From Pseudolactococcus plantarum (GTDB taxonomy: Bacteria > Bacillota > Bacilli > Lactobacillales > Streptococcaceae): 37,878 nucleotides of DNA. Position numbers and translations under genes: made by a program. The stretch lies in NCBI GenBank assembly GCA_030454995.1, contig JAKDQI010000003.1:1-37878 (forward strand). Reading direction: 5' to 3'. Shown piece by piece: positions 3,930 through 37,043 of the stretch (positions are counted from its first letter, which is position 1; every line of letters starts with the position of its first letter). The notes under the pieces are model-generated. The model was not told the origin of the DNA and ran no database searches. It worked only from the letters and a program-made list of their open reading frames with translations.

Positions 3930-3958
3930 ATTCTAACAAAAATTGATGCACTAGTCAA
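3930..3958 (-). promoter_or_regulatory. rpmG-secE-nusG promoter
   Basis: Minus strand TTGACT (3953-3958) - 17 nt - TAGAAT (3930-3935); -35 embedded in the last codons and stop of the PBP gene. Confidence 0.75.
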
Positions 3959-6098
3959 ATAACGATTTAACTCTATCCCAAACACTGCCACCTACTTCTT
4001 TAACTCTCTTACTTGCTTTGTCACTAAAATCTTTAGCTTTATCAGTGATTGCTTTCGTTTTGTTTTTAGCTTCTTCCACGACATCGTTGACTGCTGGATC
4101 ATTTGATGGTACGGCTGCAGCCTCTACCCCATCTAAGCTATAGGCATTTTCTTCTTTAAATTGCGTATTATCTGTATAGGGTAGGATCGAACTCGACATA
4201 GTTCTAAATACTGCAGAGGCTGTACCAGCTGAGGTGTCATCTAAACGGTGTAAGTCACTTTGTGGATTTTCATATCCTAACCATAGTGTCATAACGACAT
4301 CAGGTGTATAGCCAATAACCCATTGGTCAATGTCTTCATTAGTACCTGTTTTACCTGCAAGTGTATAGCCATAAGGTGCTGCATAAATACCTGTCCCATT
4401 TGTATAAGTGCCTAGCATCATACTTGTCATTTTTTGAGCTGTGTTACTATCAATCACACGTTTTGATGTCACTTTAGCTGTCGCGATTGTTTGTCCGCTT
4501 GCATTTACAATTTTTTTGATTAAATGTGCATCATTCATGATACCATCATTAGCAAATGTTGCATACGCTTGTGCCATTTGCCAAGGGTTGGTCCCAACTC
4601 CTGCACCAAGAGCAGTTGTTAAATTATCATTCTTGCTCGTCAAATTCAACCCAAATTGTTTACCTTTTTCGATGCCAGTTTTAATCCCGATTGACTTAAA
4701 TGTATTAATAGCTGGGATATTATAAGAATTAGCAAGCGCTTGATACATTGGCATGTCCCCATGCCACTGCCGATCCGCATTTAGTGGGGCCCATCCATTA
4801 TAATCTGTAGGTTTATCATGGACTGTTTTATTAATTGACCAACCTGCTTCGATCGCTGGTGTATAAACAATTAACGGTTTAATGGTTGACCCTGGACTAC
4901 GCTCAGATTGTGTAGCAAAGTTAAAGCCTCTAAAACTATTGTGTTCAGCTGTTGGCACGCGGCCAATCAAGGCCTCAACCTCTCCTGTTTTTGGATCTAG
5001 TGCAACAGAGGCAGACTGTGCACTCACACCATCTGCTGCAACTGGAAACTGAGCACTAGTAGCATAAGTTGTCTGCATACCTGTTTGCATATTTTGATTT
5101 AAACCGGTATAGATTTTGTAGCCGTTATTTAAAATATCTTGTTCTGTCAGACCATAGGTATTAATGGCTTCTTGAATGACCGCATCAAAATAACTTGGAT
5201 AAGTATAGTCATCATCTTTACCAACATAAGCATCGTTTAGATTACTGGTAATACCTACCTGCATCGCAGTATTAGCAACATCTTGCGTGATCACCTTTGT
5301 ATTTGCCATATTCTGTAGCACAGTATTTCTGCGATCTTTAGCAAATTGACCATTTTTATAAAGAGGATTATAGACTTCTGGCCACTTCAAGATACCAACC
5401 AACGTCGCCGCTTCTTCTACAGATAAATCTTTAGCGGATTTACCATAGTACTTAAGACTAGCATCTTGTATGCCCCAGATACCATTACCAAAATATGAGT
5501 TATTTAAGTACATGGTCATGATATCTTTTTTCTCATATTTTTTATTGATTTCAAGTGCTAAAAATAACTCTTTAGCTTTTCGATCAACTGTTTGCTTTTG
5601 TGTTAGATAAGCATTTTTCGCCAATTGCTGTGTGATAGTAGAACCACCACCAAATTTACCTAAGGTCAAAACAGCCAATATAGTACGTTTTATATTAATA
5701 CCACTATTTGTATAGAACGTTCTATCTTCTGTCGCAATCACCGCTTGCTTGACATTATCAGAGATATCATCAAACTTAACTGTCGTCCCTTTTTGACCAT
5801 ACATAGCACCTGCTGACTTACCATCTTTATCGATAATTTCTGTCCGTGCTTCCATCGATTGTTTCAGCGTTTTTACATCTGCTGTTTTAGCCAAAAACAA
5901 CAAGTAACTTGCTGTCGCCAACACAATAAAAAGAACCAAGGCAATCATAATTTTGGTTAAGTTATACTTATTCCAAATCCTTTTGATGGGTGCTGGAATG
6001 ATTTGTCGTTTCTTAGCTTTTATTTTTCTATCTAATCCTGGATCACTATTTTTTTCTGATCGACTGAGACTCGATTTTTTTTCTTCATTTTCTATCAT
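3951..6098 (-). CDS. pbp2A: Class A penicillin-binding protein (transglycosylase/transpeptidase, PBP2A-like)
   Basis: GT51 motifs ATEDRTFYTNSGIN and GGSTITQQLAKNAYL; transpeptidase RSPGSTIKPL, SYN and KTGT motifs. Confidence 0.95.
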   Translation of the reverse strand: MIENEEKKSSLSRSEKNSDPGLDRKIKAKKRQIIPAPIKRIWNKYNLTKIMIALVLFIVLATASYLLFLAKTADVKTLKQSMEARTEIIDKDGKSAGAMYGQKGTTVKFDDISDNVKQAVIATEDRTFYTNSGINIKRTILAVLTLGKFGGGSTITQQLAKNAYLTQKQTVDRKAKELFLALEINKKYEKKDIMTMYLNNSYFGNGIWGIQDASLKYYGKSAKDLSVEEAATLVGILKWPEVYNPLYKNGQFAKDRRNTVLQNMANTKVITQDVANTAMQVGITSNLNDAYVGKDDDYTYPSYFDAVIQEAINTYGLTEQDILNNGYKIYTGLNQNMQTGMQTTYATSAQFPVAADGVSAQSASVALDPKTGEVEALIGRVPTAEHNSFRGFNFATQSERSPGSTIKPLIVYTPAIEAGWSINKTVHDKPTDYNGWAPLNADRQWHGDMPMYQALANSYNIPAINTFKSIGIKTGIEKGKQFGLNLTSKNDNLTTALGAGVGTNPWQMAQAYATFANDGIMNDAHLIKKIVNASGQTIATAKVTSKRVIDSNTAQKMTSMMLGTYTNGTGIYAAPYGYTLAGKTGTNEDIDQWVIGYTPDVVMTLWLGYENPQSDLHRLDDTSAGTASAVFRTMSSSILPYTDNTQFKEENAYSLDGVEAAAVPSNDPAVNDVVEEAKNKTKAITDKAKDFSDKASKRVKEVGGSVWDRVKSLFD

Positions 6099-6167
6099 AA
6101 TCTTATTTTAGCATATTTTAGTATCTCTACCTTAAAACAATGTCTTTACACCAGTCAATCAAATTAG

Positions 6168-6207
6168 TTTACAATCAACACATCTTCATTTATAATTGAC
6201 TAGTCAA
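6168..6207 (+). promoter_or_regulatory. MarR-family gene promoter with overlapping palindromic operator
   Basis: TTTACA (6168-6173) - 17 nt - TATAAT (6191-6196), abutting perfect palindrome TTGACTAGTCAA (6196-6207). Confidence 0.75.
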
Positions 6208-6238
6208 CTATTGATAAATCAAAAGAAAGAGGTATTAT

Positions 6239-6646
6239 TTGGATATCAGACAGCTCAGTAAACTGTTTTACCAAATCAAGTTGGTTAACCAAGAAACCAC
6301 GACAAAGTTTGAAAAACAAACAGGCATTAGTATTACACGCTATGAACTGATGATGTTTTTAAAAGCGCATGGTAGATGTTCCCAAACAACATTACAAAAC
6401 CAGTTACACATAGATAGCGCAGCAGTCACCAGACACTTAAAAGTACTCGAGAGTAAGCACTATGTCACGCGAGAGAGAAATAAAGACAATAACCGCGAGG
6501 TATTTGTCAATTTAACAGCTGAAGCAGATAAAGCAATCACAGACTGTGAAACCAACTGCGAGACACCTCCCCAACAAGCAAATTTACCCTTAACACATGA
6601 TGAAGTAGAGACACTACTTCACTTGTTAGGTAAACTAGTAAAATGA
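6239..6646 (+). CDS. MarR-family transcriptional regulator
   Basis: wHTH protein ...TLQNQLHIDSAAVTRHLKVLESKHYVTRERNKDNNREVFVNLT; TTG start with AGAGG SD. Confidence 0.9.
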   Translation: MDIRQLSKLFYQIKLVNQETTTKFEKQTGISITRYELMMFLKAHGRCSQTTLQNQLHIDSAAVTRHLKVLESKHYVTRERNKDNNREVFVNLTAEADKAITDCETNCETPPQQANLPLTHDEVETLLHLLGKLVK

Positions 6647-7299
6647 AAGTAGAAAAAATAATGACACATCAATTACTAAACAACGATTTTTCAGATATCA
6701 CCTTTGGCAGAAAATCAATTCGTGCTTATGACGAAACAGTAAAAATTTCGCATGAAGAAATGTTAGCCATAATTCAAGAAGCCACTACCGCACCTTCTTC
6801 AGTCAACTTTCAACCATGGCGTTTTGTGGTCGTTGAAAGTGCTGAACAAAAAGAGTTATTAAAACCTTTAGTAAAGTTTAATGCATTACAAAATGATACA
6901 TCAGCAGCAATGGTATTGTGCTTTGGCGATTTAGCCTGCTATGAACTAGGGGAAACTATATATGATCAAGCAGTATCAGAGGGTAAAATGCCACAAGACG
7001 TGAGAGATCGACAACTTGCTTCAATCGTGCCAATGTACCAATCTTTAAGCACAGCACAAATGAATGATATCGTAAAAATCGATACAAGTTTGGCAGCTAT
7101 GCAATTTATGTTAGTTGCTAGAGCTCACGGTTATGATACTAACCCTATTGGTGGTTTCGACAGCGATAAGCTAGCAGAAACATTTGGATTAGATAAAAAT
7201 CGTTATGTACCTGTCATGATCATCTCAATCGGTAAAGCAGCAGAAGCTGGTTATCAATCTGTGCGATTGCCAGCAGAAACAATTACTGAATTCAAATAA
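6643..7299 (+). CDS. Nitroreductase family protein
   Basis: FGRKSIRAYDETVKISHEEMLAIIQEATTAPSSVNFQPWRFVVVES is a nitroreductase N-terminus; ATGA overlap with the MarR gene. Confidence 0.93.
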   Translation: MKVEKIMTHQLLNNDFSDITFGRKSIRAYDETVKISHEEMLAIIQEATTAPSSVNFQPWRFVVVESAEQKELLKPLVKFNALQNDTSAAMVLCFGDLACYELGETIYDQAVSEGKMPQDVRDRQLASIVPMYQSLSTAQMNDIVKIDTSLAAMQFMLVARAHGYDTNPIGGFDSDKLAETFGLDKNRYVPVMIISIGKAAEAGYQSVRLPAETITEFK

Positions 7300-10835: not shown

Positions 10836-11687
10836 TTACAGCATCCGAACTAGATAGACTTCATCACAGAATCCCTTGATACTATTACAAAGACGACGTG
10901 CCTTCTTTTCATGATAGCAAAGTGCAAAAACAGTAGGACCACTACCACTCATCAACACGCCATCAGCACCACTTGATAATAACCGATTTTTAATCTTCAA
11001 AATCAAAGGGTGTTTGTCAATTGTAACATCCTCTAATGAATTTCCCATATAAGTTAACACATTGTCTATGTCGCCATTAATCACGGCTGCTTCTAAACTA
11101 CTTATATCTGGATGACTGATTGTCTCACTATTCACATGTCGGAAAATTTCAGGTGTTGATACGCCAAAATCGGGCTTAACAAGTATTACCCAAGGCTTTT
11201 TCGTATTAGCGATTGGTTTAACGTATTCACCACGACCCGTCACACGAGCTGTCTGTCCATAAACACAATAGGGGACATCTGAGCCTATCTGTTCACCTAA
11301 TTTCGCCAACGCTTCTTGGCTTAAGTTAAGTTGCCAAAGTTTGTTCAAAGCACGTAGCGTTGCTGCAGCATCAGAAGATCCGCCAGCTAAACCAGCTGCA
11401 ATCGGTATTTTTTTATCAATAAAAATTTCAACACCTTTTTGGATATGAAATGTTTGCTTAATGAGTACCGCAGCTTTATATGCATGGTTTTTTTTGTTTA
11501 AAGGTACAAAGCTAGAATTTGATTGTAATCTAATACCAGTCTCGTCCGGCATCTCCTTCACTGTAATACGATCTGACAAATCGACACTTGCCATAATCAT
11601 ATCTAGCTCATGATACCCATCTTCACGCTTACCTTTGACATCCAAACCCAAATTTATCTTAGCTGGTGCTTTTTCTATAATCTCCAT
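10836..11687 (-). CDS. ispE: 4-diphosphocytidyl-2-C-methyl-D-erythritol kinase
   Basis: EKAPAKINLGLDVKGKREDGYHELDMIMASVDL and PIAAGLAGGSSDAAATLRALN (GHMP kinase). Confidence 0.95.
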   Translation of the reverse strand: MEIIEKAPAKINLGLDVKGKREDGYHELDMIMASVDLSDRITVKEMPDETGIRLQSNSSFVPLNKKNHAYKAAVLIKQTFHIQKGVEIFIDKKIPIAAGLAGGSSDAAATLRALNKLWQLNLSQEALAKLGEQIGSDVPYCVYGQTARVTGRGEYVKPIANTKKPWVILVKPDFGVSTPEIFRHVNSETISHPDISSLEAAVINGDIDNVLTYMGNSLEDVTIDKHPLILKIKNRLLSSGADGVLMSGSGPTVFALCYHEKKARRLCNSIKGFCDEVYLVRML

Positions 11688-11733
11688 AACAATATTCTAT
11701 CATATTATCAGAAGACAGTTAAGAGGTTGATGA

Positions 11734-14421: not shown

Positions 14422-15376
14422 TTTGACTTGTTATTTGACTGATATTTTTTTCTGATGATGCCATATCATCACTAATAAATCCTGATTTAACAAGCCACTC
14501 AATTTTGTTACGCCAAGTTTGATCTGTGTGAGTATGAAAGTTTTTATCGGCATAAGTTAGTACCCCTTTTCCACCTATAAGACGCTGATAAACAATCCCC
14601 GATAAGGCGCTTGTCATCTCACTCGAGTTAATACCAAGCTCTAACAACCTTGCATAAACACCACTGATCGATCTAGCATGAACAGTCGAAAATACTGTAT
14701 ATCCCGTCAAGTTAGCGCGAATCACTGCCCGAGCAGTTGCTTGATCTCGTATCTCCCCTACTATCACCAGATCAGGCATATGACGAAGTGAGAGTTTAAT
14801 CAGATTATCATAGGTATTACCAATCGTTTCATTTAGCTGTAGCTGTAAAAATTCTGGACTGACAAGCTCCACCGGATCCTCAATGGTAATCACCTGTCTC
14901 TCAAAAAACTTTTCCTTTGCAATATGGTTCATCAATGTTGTTTTCCCAGACCCCACTGGACCTGAAAATAGATAAAGGCCTCGTCTATCTATCAGCGATA
15001 AAACGTCTAGCAAATCTGTTTCAATCCAAAACAACAAGGGTTGGTCCTCTTTAGGTAATATCCGCAACACTAAGCTCTCATTGTTTTGAAAATCACCCAC
15101 CGTTGATAACCTTATTCTTAACCTTTTCTTGGCTATCACATAAGTACATGAGCCTAGTTGTGCACGTCTTTTTTCACCAACGTTCATACCTGCAATAAAT
15201 TTGAAATGAGAAATTAAACTTTGCCCAACTGACTCTGAGAAGACCGCATAGTGTTTGCGAGATGCTGAGTGTCGAAAACCAATCGAGAAAGTCCCCTCAG
15301 TTGGTAAAATATAGACATCACTTGCCCCAAAATCAAGCGCACTGAGTAAGAGTTTGGTTGCTATCTTTTGTACCAT
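14402..15376 (-). CDS. comGA: Competence traffic ATPase ComGA
   Basis: Walker A FSGPVGSGKTTLMNHIA; ITIEDPVEL; GEIRDQATARAVIRANLTGYTVFSTVHA. Confidence 0.96.
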   Translation of the reverse strand: MVQKIATKLLLSALDFGASDVYILPTEGTFSIGFRHSASRKHYAVFSESVGQSLISHFKFIAGMNVGEKRRAQLGSCTYVIAKKRLRIRLSTVGDFQNNESLVLRILPKEDQPLLFWIETDLLDVLSLIDRRGLYLFSGPVGSGKTTLMNHIAKEKFFERQVITIEDPVELVSPEFLQLQLNETIGNTYDNLIKLSLRHMPDLVIVGEIRDQATARAVIRANLTGYTVFSTVHARSISGVYARLLELGINSSEMTSALSGIVYQRLIGGKGVLTYADKNFHTHTDQTWRNKIEWLVKSGFISDDMASSEKNISQITSQIDDFDA

Positions 15377-29176: not shown

Positions 29177-29785
29177 CTATATCACATCAGTGATATCATT
29201 TACAGGTAAGCGGTATGATGCAGTACCCTCTTGCTCTGAGTACCCCATCGTAATGATAAGCTCAGGTCTAAAACGTGATTCAATAGCAAGTACTTCCTTT
29301 GCTTTGGCTTTATCAAAACCTAAAATCATGTTAGTTTTCAACCCCTTATCATGCGCTGCAAGCACAATATTTTGAGAGACTAGACCAATATTTAAAGCCA
29401 GATAATCCGATAATTCAGCATCAGAAAACTTCTCAAACATACCTGGAAGCCTTGATAATAACATCTCTTTAGCCTCATCAGGTAAAAAATCATCGCCAAT
29501 TGCTACCAAATCATGAACTCGTGCAGTCAAATCTGTATCTGAATACACGACAACCGTAGCTCCTGCGCCTTCATGTTGTGCAGCATTTTTAGCATGCATG
29601 GTAGTCGATAATGCATAGCGCTTTTCATCAGAGACAACAATGGCAAAATGCCAAGGTTGAATATTATGAGCTGAAGGTGCAAGGACAGCTTCTGATAAAA
29701 TAGCTTTTACATCAGCAATCGTTAGTTTACGACCATCAAATTCAGTTACTTTATGACGGTTATGATTTAATGTTGAAAATTCCAT
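29177..29785 (-). CDS. Nitroreductase family protein
   Basis: HKVTEFDGRKLTIADVKAILSEAVLAPSAHNIQPWHFAIV; nitroreductase fold. Confidence 0.92.
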   Translation of the reverse strand: MEFSTLNHNRHKVTEFDGRKLTIADVKAILSEAVLAPSAHNIQPWHFAIVVSDEKRYALSTTMHAKNAAQHEGAGATVVVYSDTDLTARVHDLVAIGDDFLPDEAKEMLLSRLPGMFEKFSDAELSDYLALNIGLVSQNIVLAAHDKGLKTNMILGFDKAKAKEVLAIESRFRPELIITMGYSEQEGTASYRLPVNDITDVI

Positions 29786-30291
29786 TATCCCTTAATTCTC
29801 CTTAACACTTTATACAGTAAGTAAGCAAGTACACCCCCAACGGTGTTGGTTATCAAATCATCAACTTCAAAGACACGATTGAAGTTGAATAGTAAATCTA
29901 GTAGTGCTTGGGTGCTTTCGATCGTTAAACTCATCAAAAAACTGATTAACAAAATCTTTTTAAACTGTCGAACACTTGGTTTTAATAGACAGATTGCAAA
30001 GACCAGTGGTAAAAGCAAAAATATATTTGCGACATTTTGCAACACAATCACAAATAGGTCTTGTATACTTGGTATTTTACCAAGATGGACTAGTGTATTA
30101 AATGGCGTTAATATCGTTACAATCTGACCGAAATGTACGATCCCTGGTGTTTCTATCTGTTTGATACTCGGATAGAAAGATTGGGGTAGAAAACACATCA
30201 TACAGATAGCAATAGTGTAGCATACAGCACCTATTTTTACAATTTTTTGAAACGGTTGGGTTAGGTGTTCAGTTTTATCAAATAAACGCAT
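29785..30291 (-). CDS. VanZ-like family membrane protein
   Basis: VNPFNTLVHLG-type region, LLISFLMSLTIESTQALLDLLFNFNRVFEVDDLITNTVGGVLAYLLY is a VanZ motif. Confidence 0.88.
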   Translation of the reverse strand: MRLFDKTEHLTQPFQKIVKIGAVCYTIAICMMCFLPQSFYPSIKQIETPGIVHFGQIVTILTPFNTLVHLGKIPSIQDLFVIVLQNVANIFLLLPLVFAICLLKPSVRQFKKILLISFLMSLTIESTQALLDLLFNFNRVFEVDDLITNTVGGVLAYLLYKVLRRIKG

Positions 30292-30305
30292 AATTTATTG
30301 TAACA

Positions 30306-30341
30306 TAAAACACCAGCAGACTTAATAAAGTCAACTAGTGT
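30306..30341 (-). terminator. rlmN terminator
   Basis: ACACCAGCAGACTT-aata-AAGTCAACTAGTGT; as minus-strand RNA 13 of 14 positions pair (with G-U), followed by TTTTA. Confidence 0.65.
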
Positions 30342-30364: not shown

Positions 30365-31483
30365 TTAAACTGTAACGGATTCAACCGCAGTTTTTGATGT
30401 CTTATCTTTTTTCATCGTCTTACTTCTTAACTGACCACATGCGGCATCAATGTCAGTCCCATGTTCTTGTCTAATGACACAGTTTATGCCGTTTTTCTTG
30501 AGAATATCATAGAATTTAAGGACATCCTCTTTTGATGAACGACTATATTGATCATGCTCACTAACTGGATTATAAGGAATCAGATTAACATAAGCTAACT
30601 TCTTCATATCTTTCAACAAAGTTGCCAACTCACGCGCATGCTCTGGTCTATCATTGACCCCGCTGAGCATAATATATTCAAAAGTAACGCGCCTATTTGT
30701 CTTGTCAAGATAATAGTTAATCGCTTCGAACAAGGTTTCGATTGGAAATTGGCGGTTAATCCGCATAATACTCGTTCTTACCTCATTATTTGGGGCATGT
30801 AGCGATATTGCTAGATTAATCTGCAAGCCGGTTCCTGCAAATTCTTTGATTTTATGTGCTAATCCCGACGTTGAAACTGTGATATGACGGGCACCAATAG
30901 CTAGTCCATGATCATCATTAACTGTTCTGATGAAATTAATCAGATTGTTATAATTGTCAAATGGTTCACCAATCCCCATCACCACAATATGGCTAACACG
31001 TTCATCAAGACCACGTTCATCGAAATACTTTTGCACTAACATAATCTGTGCTGTGATTTCACCAGCTGTCAGATCACGCTGTTTTTTAATCAATCCAGAT
31101 GCACAAAATGTACAGCCGATATTACACCCTACTTGAGTCGTCACACATACTGACAAGCCATATTTTTGGCGCATCAAAACGGTCTCAACTAACATATTAT
31201 CTGGTAATTCAAATAAATACTTAACTGTACCGTCCTTAGACTCTTGCACCAAACGTTGTGTCAAGGGGTTGATTACAAACTGATCCTTTAATTTCTCGAT
31301 AAAGTCTTTAGAGATATTTGTCATATCATCAAACGATGTGACACGCTTTTTATAAAGCCAATCCCAGATTTGTGTCGCACGAAATTTTTTGGCACCATTT
31401 TCAATCGCCCACTCGATTAATTGGTCACGTGTTAAGCCATATATAGAGGGTTTCATTTGTTCTTTTTGAATAGTTTTAGTCAT
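30365..31483 (-). CDS. rlmN: 23S rRNA (adenine(2503)-C(2))-methyltransferase (radical SAM)
   Basis: [18 protein letters not shown] radical SAM motif; [27 protein letters not shown]. Track start 31534; 31483 or 31456 more likely. Confidence 0.96.
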
Positions 31484-31606
31484 GTTAATAGTATAGCATG
31501 TAACCGCATAGCACCGCAATAGAGAATATCTCATGCTATGTTAATCCTACTTTAAATGATAAGTCAATAATTCATCACCTATAACGTATTTCTCTAACTT
31601 GATTAT

Positions 31607-32407: not shown

Positions 32408-33769
32408 TTAAGCTTCAGGATGACTATCTGTTCTCAAATAATCAGCAACTATCTCTCTCATAAATTTAGGAAACTGAATTTCTGCAGTACCTGAGGCCTT
32501 CAAAATAGGAAAATAAGACGCAAATATATACTGATCTGGTACCAGTACAGTATAATATACAGCTTCATCAATCACTTCGCCTTGATAAAAAAGTTGTCCT
32601 TGATGTTCAGATAACCCTACTGTAATGATATCACCAAAAACTTTTCCTCTAAAGCCCATTCCGACGATCTTCTGGGTTTTTAAGTAATTACCAACTTGGT
32701 GTAATTCTTGCATGATCTCTTTTAGTTCTCGACCTGTTACGGTTAATTTCACCATTCTGATACTGTGAGGTAAAATATCATGTAAGGCATCCATCGTAAG
32801 CACTTGCGGTATATCTTGAACGATCATCCCACTGTTCATAACAACTGTCGACACCTGATAATAAGCACCCAATATTTCAGCTACAACGTGTGCCGCAGTA
32901 TAATCTGGCGCTTGATTGATGAACGGATGAGATAAATCGGTAATTTGTTGCGCTTGTAACAACTCATGTCCCTCCATCTCTAACCCGTCTATAACTGTTT
33001 TATCTGCAGGTAATGAAGGCAGGTGGCGAACTTCCTCAGCAATAATATCTGATTGAATACACTGGAAATGTTCATCAAAGATAAGTGTAATATCACCTAC
33101 ATGTTCACCGTAACGACCTGCTGCAGCTAGCATTGTCCCATCTATATATTTGCCATATTCGTAAATATGATGGGTATGCGATCCTAAAATCAAATCTAAA
33201 TTAGTAAACTGCGATGCCGCTTGCTCATCAAAACGCCACCCTAAATGACTTAATAATATCGTAAAATCTGCTGTTGATGTTGACAACTGCTGTGCCAATA
33301 TGTCTTGTGGATCTAAAATATCCCACCCCATGTGTGGATAGGCTAGAGGGTATGGTGCTGTCAAACCAAAAATATCGATGGTCATGCCAAAAGAGGTCAT
33401 AACAGTTTTTTTCTCAATAGCCCAACTAGGCTGTTTGGCTTTATCTTTGAGATTCGCTAACACAACATCAAAATTAGCCGACTGATAAAGACTATCTAAC
33501 CTCTCCTTAGGTAAGCCTAGCCCCTCGTTATTACCAATTGTTGCAGCAGTTAGCTGCAATTCATTCATTAAACTGATATTTGCCTGCCCATAGGTTGCTT
33601 CTGTCAAAGCATGGGAGCGGTCAACATTATCCCCAATATCAAAACGTAAGACATCAGTATAGCCAACAGCCTGATCAGTAAAAAAGCGTTTTATTTTTGG
33701 ATAATTTTCGAAATGGGAGTGCAAATCGTTTAAATGTAAGATTTTTAACACATTTCCTTGATTAGTCAT
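32408..33769 (-). CDS. Bifunctional metallophosphatase/5'-nucleotidase (YunD-like)
   Basis: LKILHLNDLHSHFENYPKI, GNNEGLG, GSHTHH metallophosphatase motifs; C-terminal 5'-nucleotidase domain. Start at 33769 (MTNQGN). Confidence 0.92.
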   Translation of the reverse strand: MTNQGNVLKILHLNDLHSHFENYPKIKRFFTDQAVGYTDVLRFDIGDNVDRSHALTEATYGQANISLMNELQLTAATIGNNEGLGLPKERLDSLYQSANFDVVLANLKDKAKQPSWAIEKKTVMTSFGMTIDIFGLTAPYPLAYPHMGWDILDPQDILAQQLSTSTADFTILLSHLGWRFDEQAASQFTNLDLILGSHTHHIYEYGKYIDGTMLAAAGRYGEHVGDITLIFDEHFQCIQSDIIAEEVRHLPSLPADKTVIDGLEMEGHELLQAQQITDLSHPFINQAPDYTAAHVVAEILGAYYQVSTVVMNSGMIVQDIPQVLTMDALHDILPHSIRMVKLTVTGRELKEIMQELHQVGNYLKTQKIVGMGFRGKVFGDIITVGLSEHQGQLFYQGEVIDEAVYYTVLVPDQYIFASYFPILKASGTAEIQFPKFMREIVADYLRTDSHPEA

Positions 33770-34001
33770 AGCATCATTATAGCACAGATCTATCCTTCTA
33801 TGTTCCCTTATATCTTGTAATTCCCCCATTTGAAAGCCTTAAACAATCACTATATACTTTCATATACCTTGGTATTATCTCGTTAGACAGACTTATAGAT
33901 TGGTTATCATCTTTCAAGATTTGATTCATGCTGTATTTTTTGGATGCAAACTTAAAAAAGACGACATCACCAGATTTTCTGTATAGCTGAGTCAACACAT
34001 C

Positions 34002-35987: not shown

Positions 35988-37043
35988 AATCTGATGCCTC
36001 CTTGATGAGCTTACCGCCTATCTTTAGACCAGAGACAACTTGTAAGCCACTAGTCGTTTCCTTAGTTTCAACGGCTACACGATCAAATTTTTTCCCATTT
36101 TGCAGGTAAACTTTTCCATTTTTAACAGCAGACTTAGGAATATAAAGTGTCTCATTTTTTTATGAATCTGAACTGTATAGCCATTTTGCAAGTGTTCATC
36201 TAAGTTAACCTTAAACGCATACTGACTCGCTGCTGTTTCAGAGCTTGCTTTTTCTGGAACTGGCGAGATATAGGTAATTTTTCCTGTGATTTTTTTTGCT
36301 AAATCAATCGTTTCGACCGTTACCACATCGTTCACCTTGAGCTTATCGTAATCATATTCTGACACCTTACCATTAACGAGCGTATCACGACTAACAACAC
36401 TAAGTAAAGGTGACGTTTCTGACTTGTTACCCATAATCACAAAACCGTCCGTTTTAGCAGTTACAGTAGCTGTTTGTTTTGCCTTTTGACCATCCAGTGC
36501 AGCCTTTGCTTGATCACGTGCTAGCACACTAGTAGTTATCGCACGTTGTGCAGCTTTCCAAGACTCATGATTCGTTTCAATCTGAGCATTAATGACTTGT
36601 CTTTCGCTATCATCTTTCGACTTGTTAAAGTCATTACGCAGTTTAACATCTTTTTTCTCTGCCTCAGCTAAATCGGCTTGAGCATTTGCTAAATCGTTTT
36701 CAGCTCCTTTGATCGCAAACTCTTGGCTTGATAAATCATCAGTAGGTTTTGTATAGGTCAACAAAACATCGCCAGCCTTCACTTCCTGTCCATCTGAAAC
36801 ATTAACTTGAGAAAGTTCACCAAGGGCTGCATCATCTCTATAGTTTGTTGATGTTTTTGCGATCACACTACCTTTAAAAATATCATCTGCCTGAGCCTTT
36901 ACGGTGTAAAGCGAATAATCTTTCGTCTTACTAGAATTTCCTTTAGGTAACACAGTTGATAAAACCACTATACCGATAATCATTATGCTAATAATGCTCG
37001 TTAATACAACAACTACCGGATGTTTCTTATACATTTTTTTCAT
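35971..37043 (-). pseudogene. HlyD/MacA-like membrane fusion protein, frameshifted at a T7 tract (plus-strand 36155-36161)
   Basis: ORF 36075..37043 is MFP-like (TVKAQADDIFKGSVIAK...DGQEVKAGDVLLTY...VTAKTDGFVIM) until HKKMRHF; one added base restores HKKNETLYIPKSAVKNGKVYLQNGKKFDRVAVETKETTSGLQVVSGLKIGGKLIKEASDYVDTP*, ending at 35971. Confidence 0.75.

Follow-up and report, generated by a model that had tools for sequence, protein, structure and literature searches.

Leaderless mRNAs are known from several Streptococcaceae: they make up about 13% of mRNAs in Lactococcus cremoris, in which leaders of 4 to 14 nt are absent (PMC10986495), 9% in Streptococcus pneumoniae (PMC6212727), 8.6% in S. pyogenes (PMC6431027), and 8% in S. 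agalactiae, where transcription of such mRNAs begins at the A of the AUG in 90% of cases (PMC4448216). In enterococci, the fraction is under 1% (PMC7724050). The pbp2A gene of pneumococcal strain D39 (SPV_1821) is itself leaderless, as determined by Cappable-seq and a reporter, and its promoter supports efficient leaderless translation that is not improved by an added ribosome-binding site (PMC6212727). Here, we analyzed a pbp2A-like gene in a 37,878-nt stretch of Pseudolactococcus plantarum DNA (contig JAKDQI010000003.1; hereafter the window). We consider it about 90% probable that this gene has a sigma-A extended -10 promoter, an mRNA running from the A of ATG 6098, and initiation at a 5'-AUG free of any Shine-Dalgarno (SD) sequence, as part of a Streptococcaceae-wide class. 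Under this reading, the housekeeping sigma-A polymerase would bind a -35-less, TGn-extended -10 element (6113-6105) and begin transcription at the A of the ATG, seven bases past the -10 hexamer, to yield a leaderless 5'-AUG mRNA on which ribosomes would start without SD pairing. These would probably be intact 70S particles with initiator tRNA and IF2, a route for leaderless mRNA cited in PMC6431027; both this route and the actual +1 are what we infer. A leaderless pbp2A, which we regard as real, is largely expected and the class is not new, because both the class and the pbp2A family were already known to be leaderless in relatives.

The encoded protein carries the Pfam Transgly (PF00912) and Transpeptidase (PF00905) domains. 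Its best NCBIfam model was strep_PBP2A (NF038276; E 4.9e-296), with a score of 983.7 bits under the curated cut-off of 1100 bits, so we name it a PBP2A-like orthologue and not a formal PBP2A member; it does belong to the PBP1A family TIGR02074 (557.9 bits, cut-off 508.75), which has transglycosylase and transpeptidase domains. It was 98% identical to the penicillin-binding protein of Lactococcus plantarum DSM 20686 and 79-88% identical to those of L. piscium, laudensis, chungangensis, reticulitermitis, insecticola, and raffinolactis. On the minus strand, positions 6096-6113 read TGCTAAAATAAGATTATG, i.e., TGCTAAAAT-AAGATT-ATG, exactly as the initial annotation had reported (Table 1). The sigma-70-type -10 element is located 6 nt 5' of an AUG start codon, within the 6- to 7-nt distance that defines the class, and that ATG was retained in 11/11 same-genus orthologues. 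The annotated lack of an SD was confirmed by an anti-SD duplex energy of +0.8 kcal/mol, and no -35 box was found for this gene, the best match at 15-19 nt being 3/6. Within the -10 hexamer, the first TAA closes the reading frame, and no start codon lies between it and the gene, so ATG 6098 is the furthest-upstream start possible; the open extension 5' of it spans just 9 nt. The sequence predicts that pbp2A transcription begins at the A of this ATG (+1).

Table 1. Predicted leaderless genes of the window and the promoter elements of the pbp2A-like gene
Feature	Coordinates	Strand	Remarks
pbp2A-like class A penicillin-binding protein gene	3951..6098	-	715 aa; ATG 6098; predicted leaderless
TGn-extended -10 element TGCTAAAAT	6105..6113	-	Read from the sequence; TGNTANAAT kept in 11/11 same-genus orthologues
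6-nt discriminator AAGATT, -10 to ATG	6099..6104	-	T at -1; spacing spectrum and -1 pyrimidine enrichment
ispE, TGATAGAAT-N6-ATG	10836..11702	-	ATG 11687; predicted leaderless
VanZ-like gene, TGTTACAAT-N5-ATG	29785..30305	-	ATG 30291; predicted leaderless, weaker case
rlmN, TGCTATACT-N6-ATG	30365..31498	-	ATG 31483; predicted leaderless
YunD-like metallophosphoesterase/5'-nucleotidase gene, TGCTATAAT-N6-ATG	32408..33784	-	ATG 33769; predicted leaderless

From outside the sequence, the strongest support comes from the leaderless pneumococcal pbp2A. The window gene resembles it in its orthologous PBP2A family and in the succession of extended -10, 6-7 nt, and ATG that is found in the sampled Streptococcus. 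The two differ in the N-terminal tail and in the spacer, the spacing being 7 in several Streptococcus and 6 here, and a 5' end on the start codon was measured in the pneumococcus, whereas for the window gene it is predicted from sequence. Some further transcription might come from the divergent 140-nt intergenic region, with the leaderless mRNA accompanied under other conditions by a minor leadered transcript. A conserved MarR-type palindrome 98-109 nt upstream would fit such dual use, but that palindrome is located on the plus-strand promoter of the MarR gene, a consensus scan of 6080-6260 found no minus-strand consensus promoter, and a leadered form would have no SD; we therefore regard dual use as unlikely.

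The initial annotation had listed four further starts of this kind in the window, in ispE, the VanZ-like gene, rlmN, and the YunD-like gene. All five are present, with one amendment: the spacing in the VanZ-like gene is N5, not N6, although N6 occurs in several relatives. The longest open reading frame of rlmN begins at 31534, 51 nt 5' of the leaderless ATG, and that of the YunD-like gene at 33829, 60 nt 5' of its own, so that both leaderless ATGs are internal. The rlmN start at 31534 is probably false, and a practical use of the leaderless assignment is to correct longest-ORF start errors at both genes. The terminator-like hairpin of rlmN lies directly upstream of the VanZ-like gene. A terminator-like hairpin with its T-run directly adjoins the extended -10 of the VanZ and YunD-like genes in several species, leaving no space for a separate -35; these compact terminator-promoter-ATG junctions (30291-30340 and 33769-33830 on the minus strand) were also seen in same-genus orthologues.

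Taken by themselves, the statistics of the window are modest and would not have convinced: TGNTANNAT-N6-ATG had 4 matches against 0.84 expected, a number that 1/100 shuffles reached, and the match at 30946 (plus strand) is no gene start, having been rejected as antisense inside rlmN. Loose matches at 14440, 26011, 27005, and 30070 were rejected as well, none being a gene start. Across the 1.94-Mb assembly containing the window, which is AT-rich (36% GC), there were 83 occurrences of TGNTANAAT-N6-ATG, whereas the reversed pattern had 6 and a spacing of N12 gave 16. AGGAGG-N7-ATG, tried as a genome-wide SD yardstick, proved overly strict (15 matches) and was abandoned. Distances from TGNTANAAT to in-frame ATGs in the 5' part of genes were then tabulated over 806 kb of this genome (553 called genes), giving 32 at 6 nt, 9 at 7 nt, and 0-5 elsewhere between 0 and 60 nt, absolute counts that are biased because part of the sample consisted of contigs known to carry matches; the other two frames had nothing at 6-7 nt. 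Contigs picked mostly irrespective of matches (C1-C37) retained the spike, with 14 at 6 nt and 4 at 7 nt. Dinucleotide-shuffled upstream regions yielded 0.72 +/- 0.87 matches at these two spacings, compared with 41 observed (0.8 Mb). One of the 41 (L059:5803, SD -6.3) was dropped because its ATG lies within a PTS IIC gene. The leaderless genes of the genome would number roughly 70-100, with pbp2A among them.

Signatures independent of the motif pointed the same way. SD energies in the 41-gene set averaged -1.2 kcal/mol, with 2% below -6, and 84% of the remaining genes had an SD near a possible start. A pyrimidine stood at -1 in 34/40 leaderless genes and in 131/283 ATGs preceded by an SD (Fisher p = 2.7e-6); this is the -1 Y/+1 R preference typical of initiators, provided that the A of the ATG is +1. 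Codons 2-5 were A-richer in the leaderless set (0.55 vs 0.44), and the aligned set showed no -35 consensus, which makes these extended -10 promoters. Among the 41 genes, those to which curated models gave a name included PolA, UvrB, LigA, MutL, RecQ, RlmD, RlmB, QueA, QueG, TruA, TsaE, BirA, thiamine diphosphokinase, pantothenate kinase, uridine kinase, dTMP kinase, PlsX, CdaA, ArgR, LytR, a PBP2A-like protein, and IspE. The class looks like one of low-abundance housekeeping genes.

For comparisons between genera, we took genus g1 as the clade of the window and read g5 as Streptococcus and, by inference, g9 as Lactococcus sensu stricto. Conservation among relatives, which the initial annotation had named as a check, was evident: across the five genes, the leaderless geometry was kept in 53/57 orthologues of the window's genus. 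In pbp2A, TGNTANAAT lay at N6 in 11/11 species of this genus (N7 once), and the DNA further upstream was divergent. ispE kept the arrangement in 11/11 orthologues of the genus and also in 4/4 of genus g3, at N7; the YunD-like gene did so in 12/12, and in 10/10 of Lactococcus. For rlmN, the counts were 10/12 in the window's genus and 0/12 in Streptococcus, and for the VanZ-like gene 9/11 (at N5-N6) and 0/8, respectively. The streptococcal VanZ-like gene directly follows rlmN and had no visible promoter of its own. Could the pbp2A -10 still be a chance look-alike, with the true promoter upstream and a leader in between? An AT-rich genome and modest statistics in the window leave room for such a coincidence, but shuffling produced far too few matches, the observed matches spike at one narrow spacing, the element persists across relatives whose DNA farther 5' has diverged, and upstream there is neither a minus-strand consensus promoter nor an SD to serve a leader; we judge this very improbable. 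Slimmer still is the chance that the promoter is real and the true start codon lies downstream, behind a short or normal leader: the start was assigned without proteomics, but the N-terminal protein sequence encoded from ATG 6098 onward shows conservation across 11 species, the next in-frame ATG follows about 50 codons later, where the membrane segment begins, and a downstream start cannot account for the fixed 6- to 7-nt ATG spacing of the whole class. The suggestion of the initial annotation that these starts form a systematic leaderless class is thus upheld by the spacing spike, the absence of SDs, the -1 pyrimidine, and conservation in relatives, and the lack of genome-wide enrichment that it had named as a refuting outcome did not materialize (83 against 6, and 41 against 0.72).

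Judged by motif counts, the leaderless class is concentrated in the Streptococcaceae. Median N6 sites per genome were 92 in the window's genus, 90 in Lactococcus, 116 in genus g2, 42 in g3, and 36 in Streptococcus, and 7-18 in the remaining genera of the family; the spacing-12 background was 6-18. Other Lactobacillales families had about 14 sites per genome, near background. In most of the other Bacillota, the count was about 5-20, and the controls gave about 4. The motif density by genus parallels the published leaderless fractions of L. cremoris, streptococci, and enterococci, and the near-empty interval from 8 to about 18 nt in the spacing spectrum matches the missing 4- to 14-nt leaders of L. 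cremoris. With L. cremoris, the window's genus shares the family, a similar motif density (medians of 90 in g9 and 92 in g1), and the gap between leaderless starts and leaders of about 40 nt. With the class of S. pyogenes and S. agalactiae, it shares the AUG start, extended -10 promoters, and strong conservation between species, although that class was measured and the one here is predicted, and the window's genus has the motif about 2.5 times as often as Streptococcus does. In this way, an experimentally known leaderless class is extended, by sequence alone, to an unstudied lactococcal clade. The densest TGNTANAAT-N6-ATG occurrence was in genus g2 (G001, G011, G019, G026, and G032), with 94-142 sites in small, partly incomplete genomes.

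The less expected part of the results is a gene-by-gene switching between leaderless and leadered forms in sister genera. In Streptococcus, 10/12 pbp2A genes had the motif at N6-7, with a different N-terminus. In Lactococcus, taken as the genus of L. cremoris, the leaderless arrangement was found in 0/13 pbp2A loci (L115-L126 and L128) and all 13 were leadered: TGNTANAAT lay 34-39 nt 5' of the start in 7/13, and most had an SD-like AGGA/GAGG before the start. Because these orthologues are SD-leadered, the leaderless status of the gene is not fixed. Such natural switches, with pbp2A leaderless here and in Streptococcus but carrying a leader in the sister lactococcal genus, provide matched pairs for studying what leaderless initiation is useful for. 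A bolder proposal, which we hold only tentatively and think rather doubtful, is that the Streptococcaceae leaderless set is a selected regulatory class under translational co-control via the 5'-AUG, with pbp2A-like genes switched by gain or loss of an SD leader of about 35 nt. If so, low-abundance housekeeping genes for DNA repair, RNA modification, cofactor kinases, and cell-wall synthesis would be controlled together, and the SD leader would have been gained or lost behind a conserved promoter between sister genera. The pbp2A gene of genus g2 lacks the TG but has a TAAAAT located 7-8 nt upstream of the ATG.

Two neighboring features of the window were also observed. A near-consensus TTTACA-17-TATAAT promoter at 6168-6207 on the plus strand belongs to the divergent MarR-family/nitroreductase genes (6239-7299), and a perfect palindrome, TTGACTAGTCAA (6196-6207), follows right after its -10 and is a likely MarR operator; the TTGACTAGTCAA sequence is likewise found upstream of pbp2A in L. 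piscium. The HlyD/MacA-like adaptor gene (36075-37043, minus strand) is frameshifted near a T7 run at 36157-36163, with a conserved-looking C-terminal part (NETLYIPKSAVKNG...) running on in another frame, which reflects either a sequencing error or a pseudogene.
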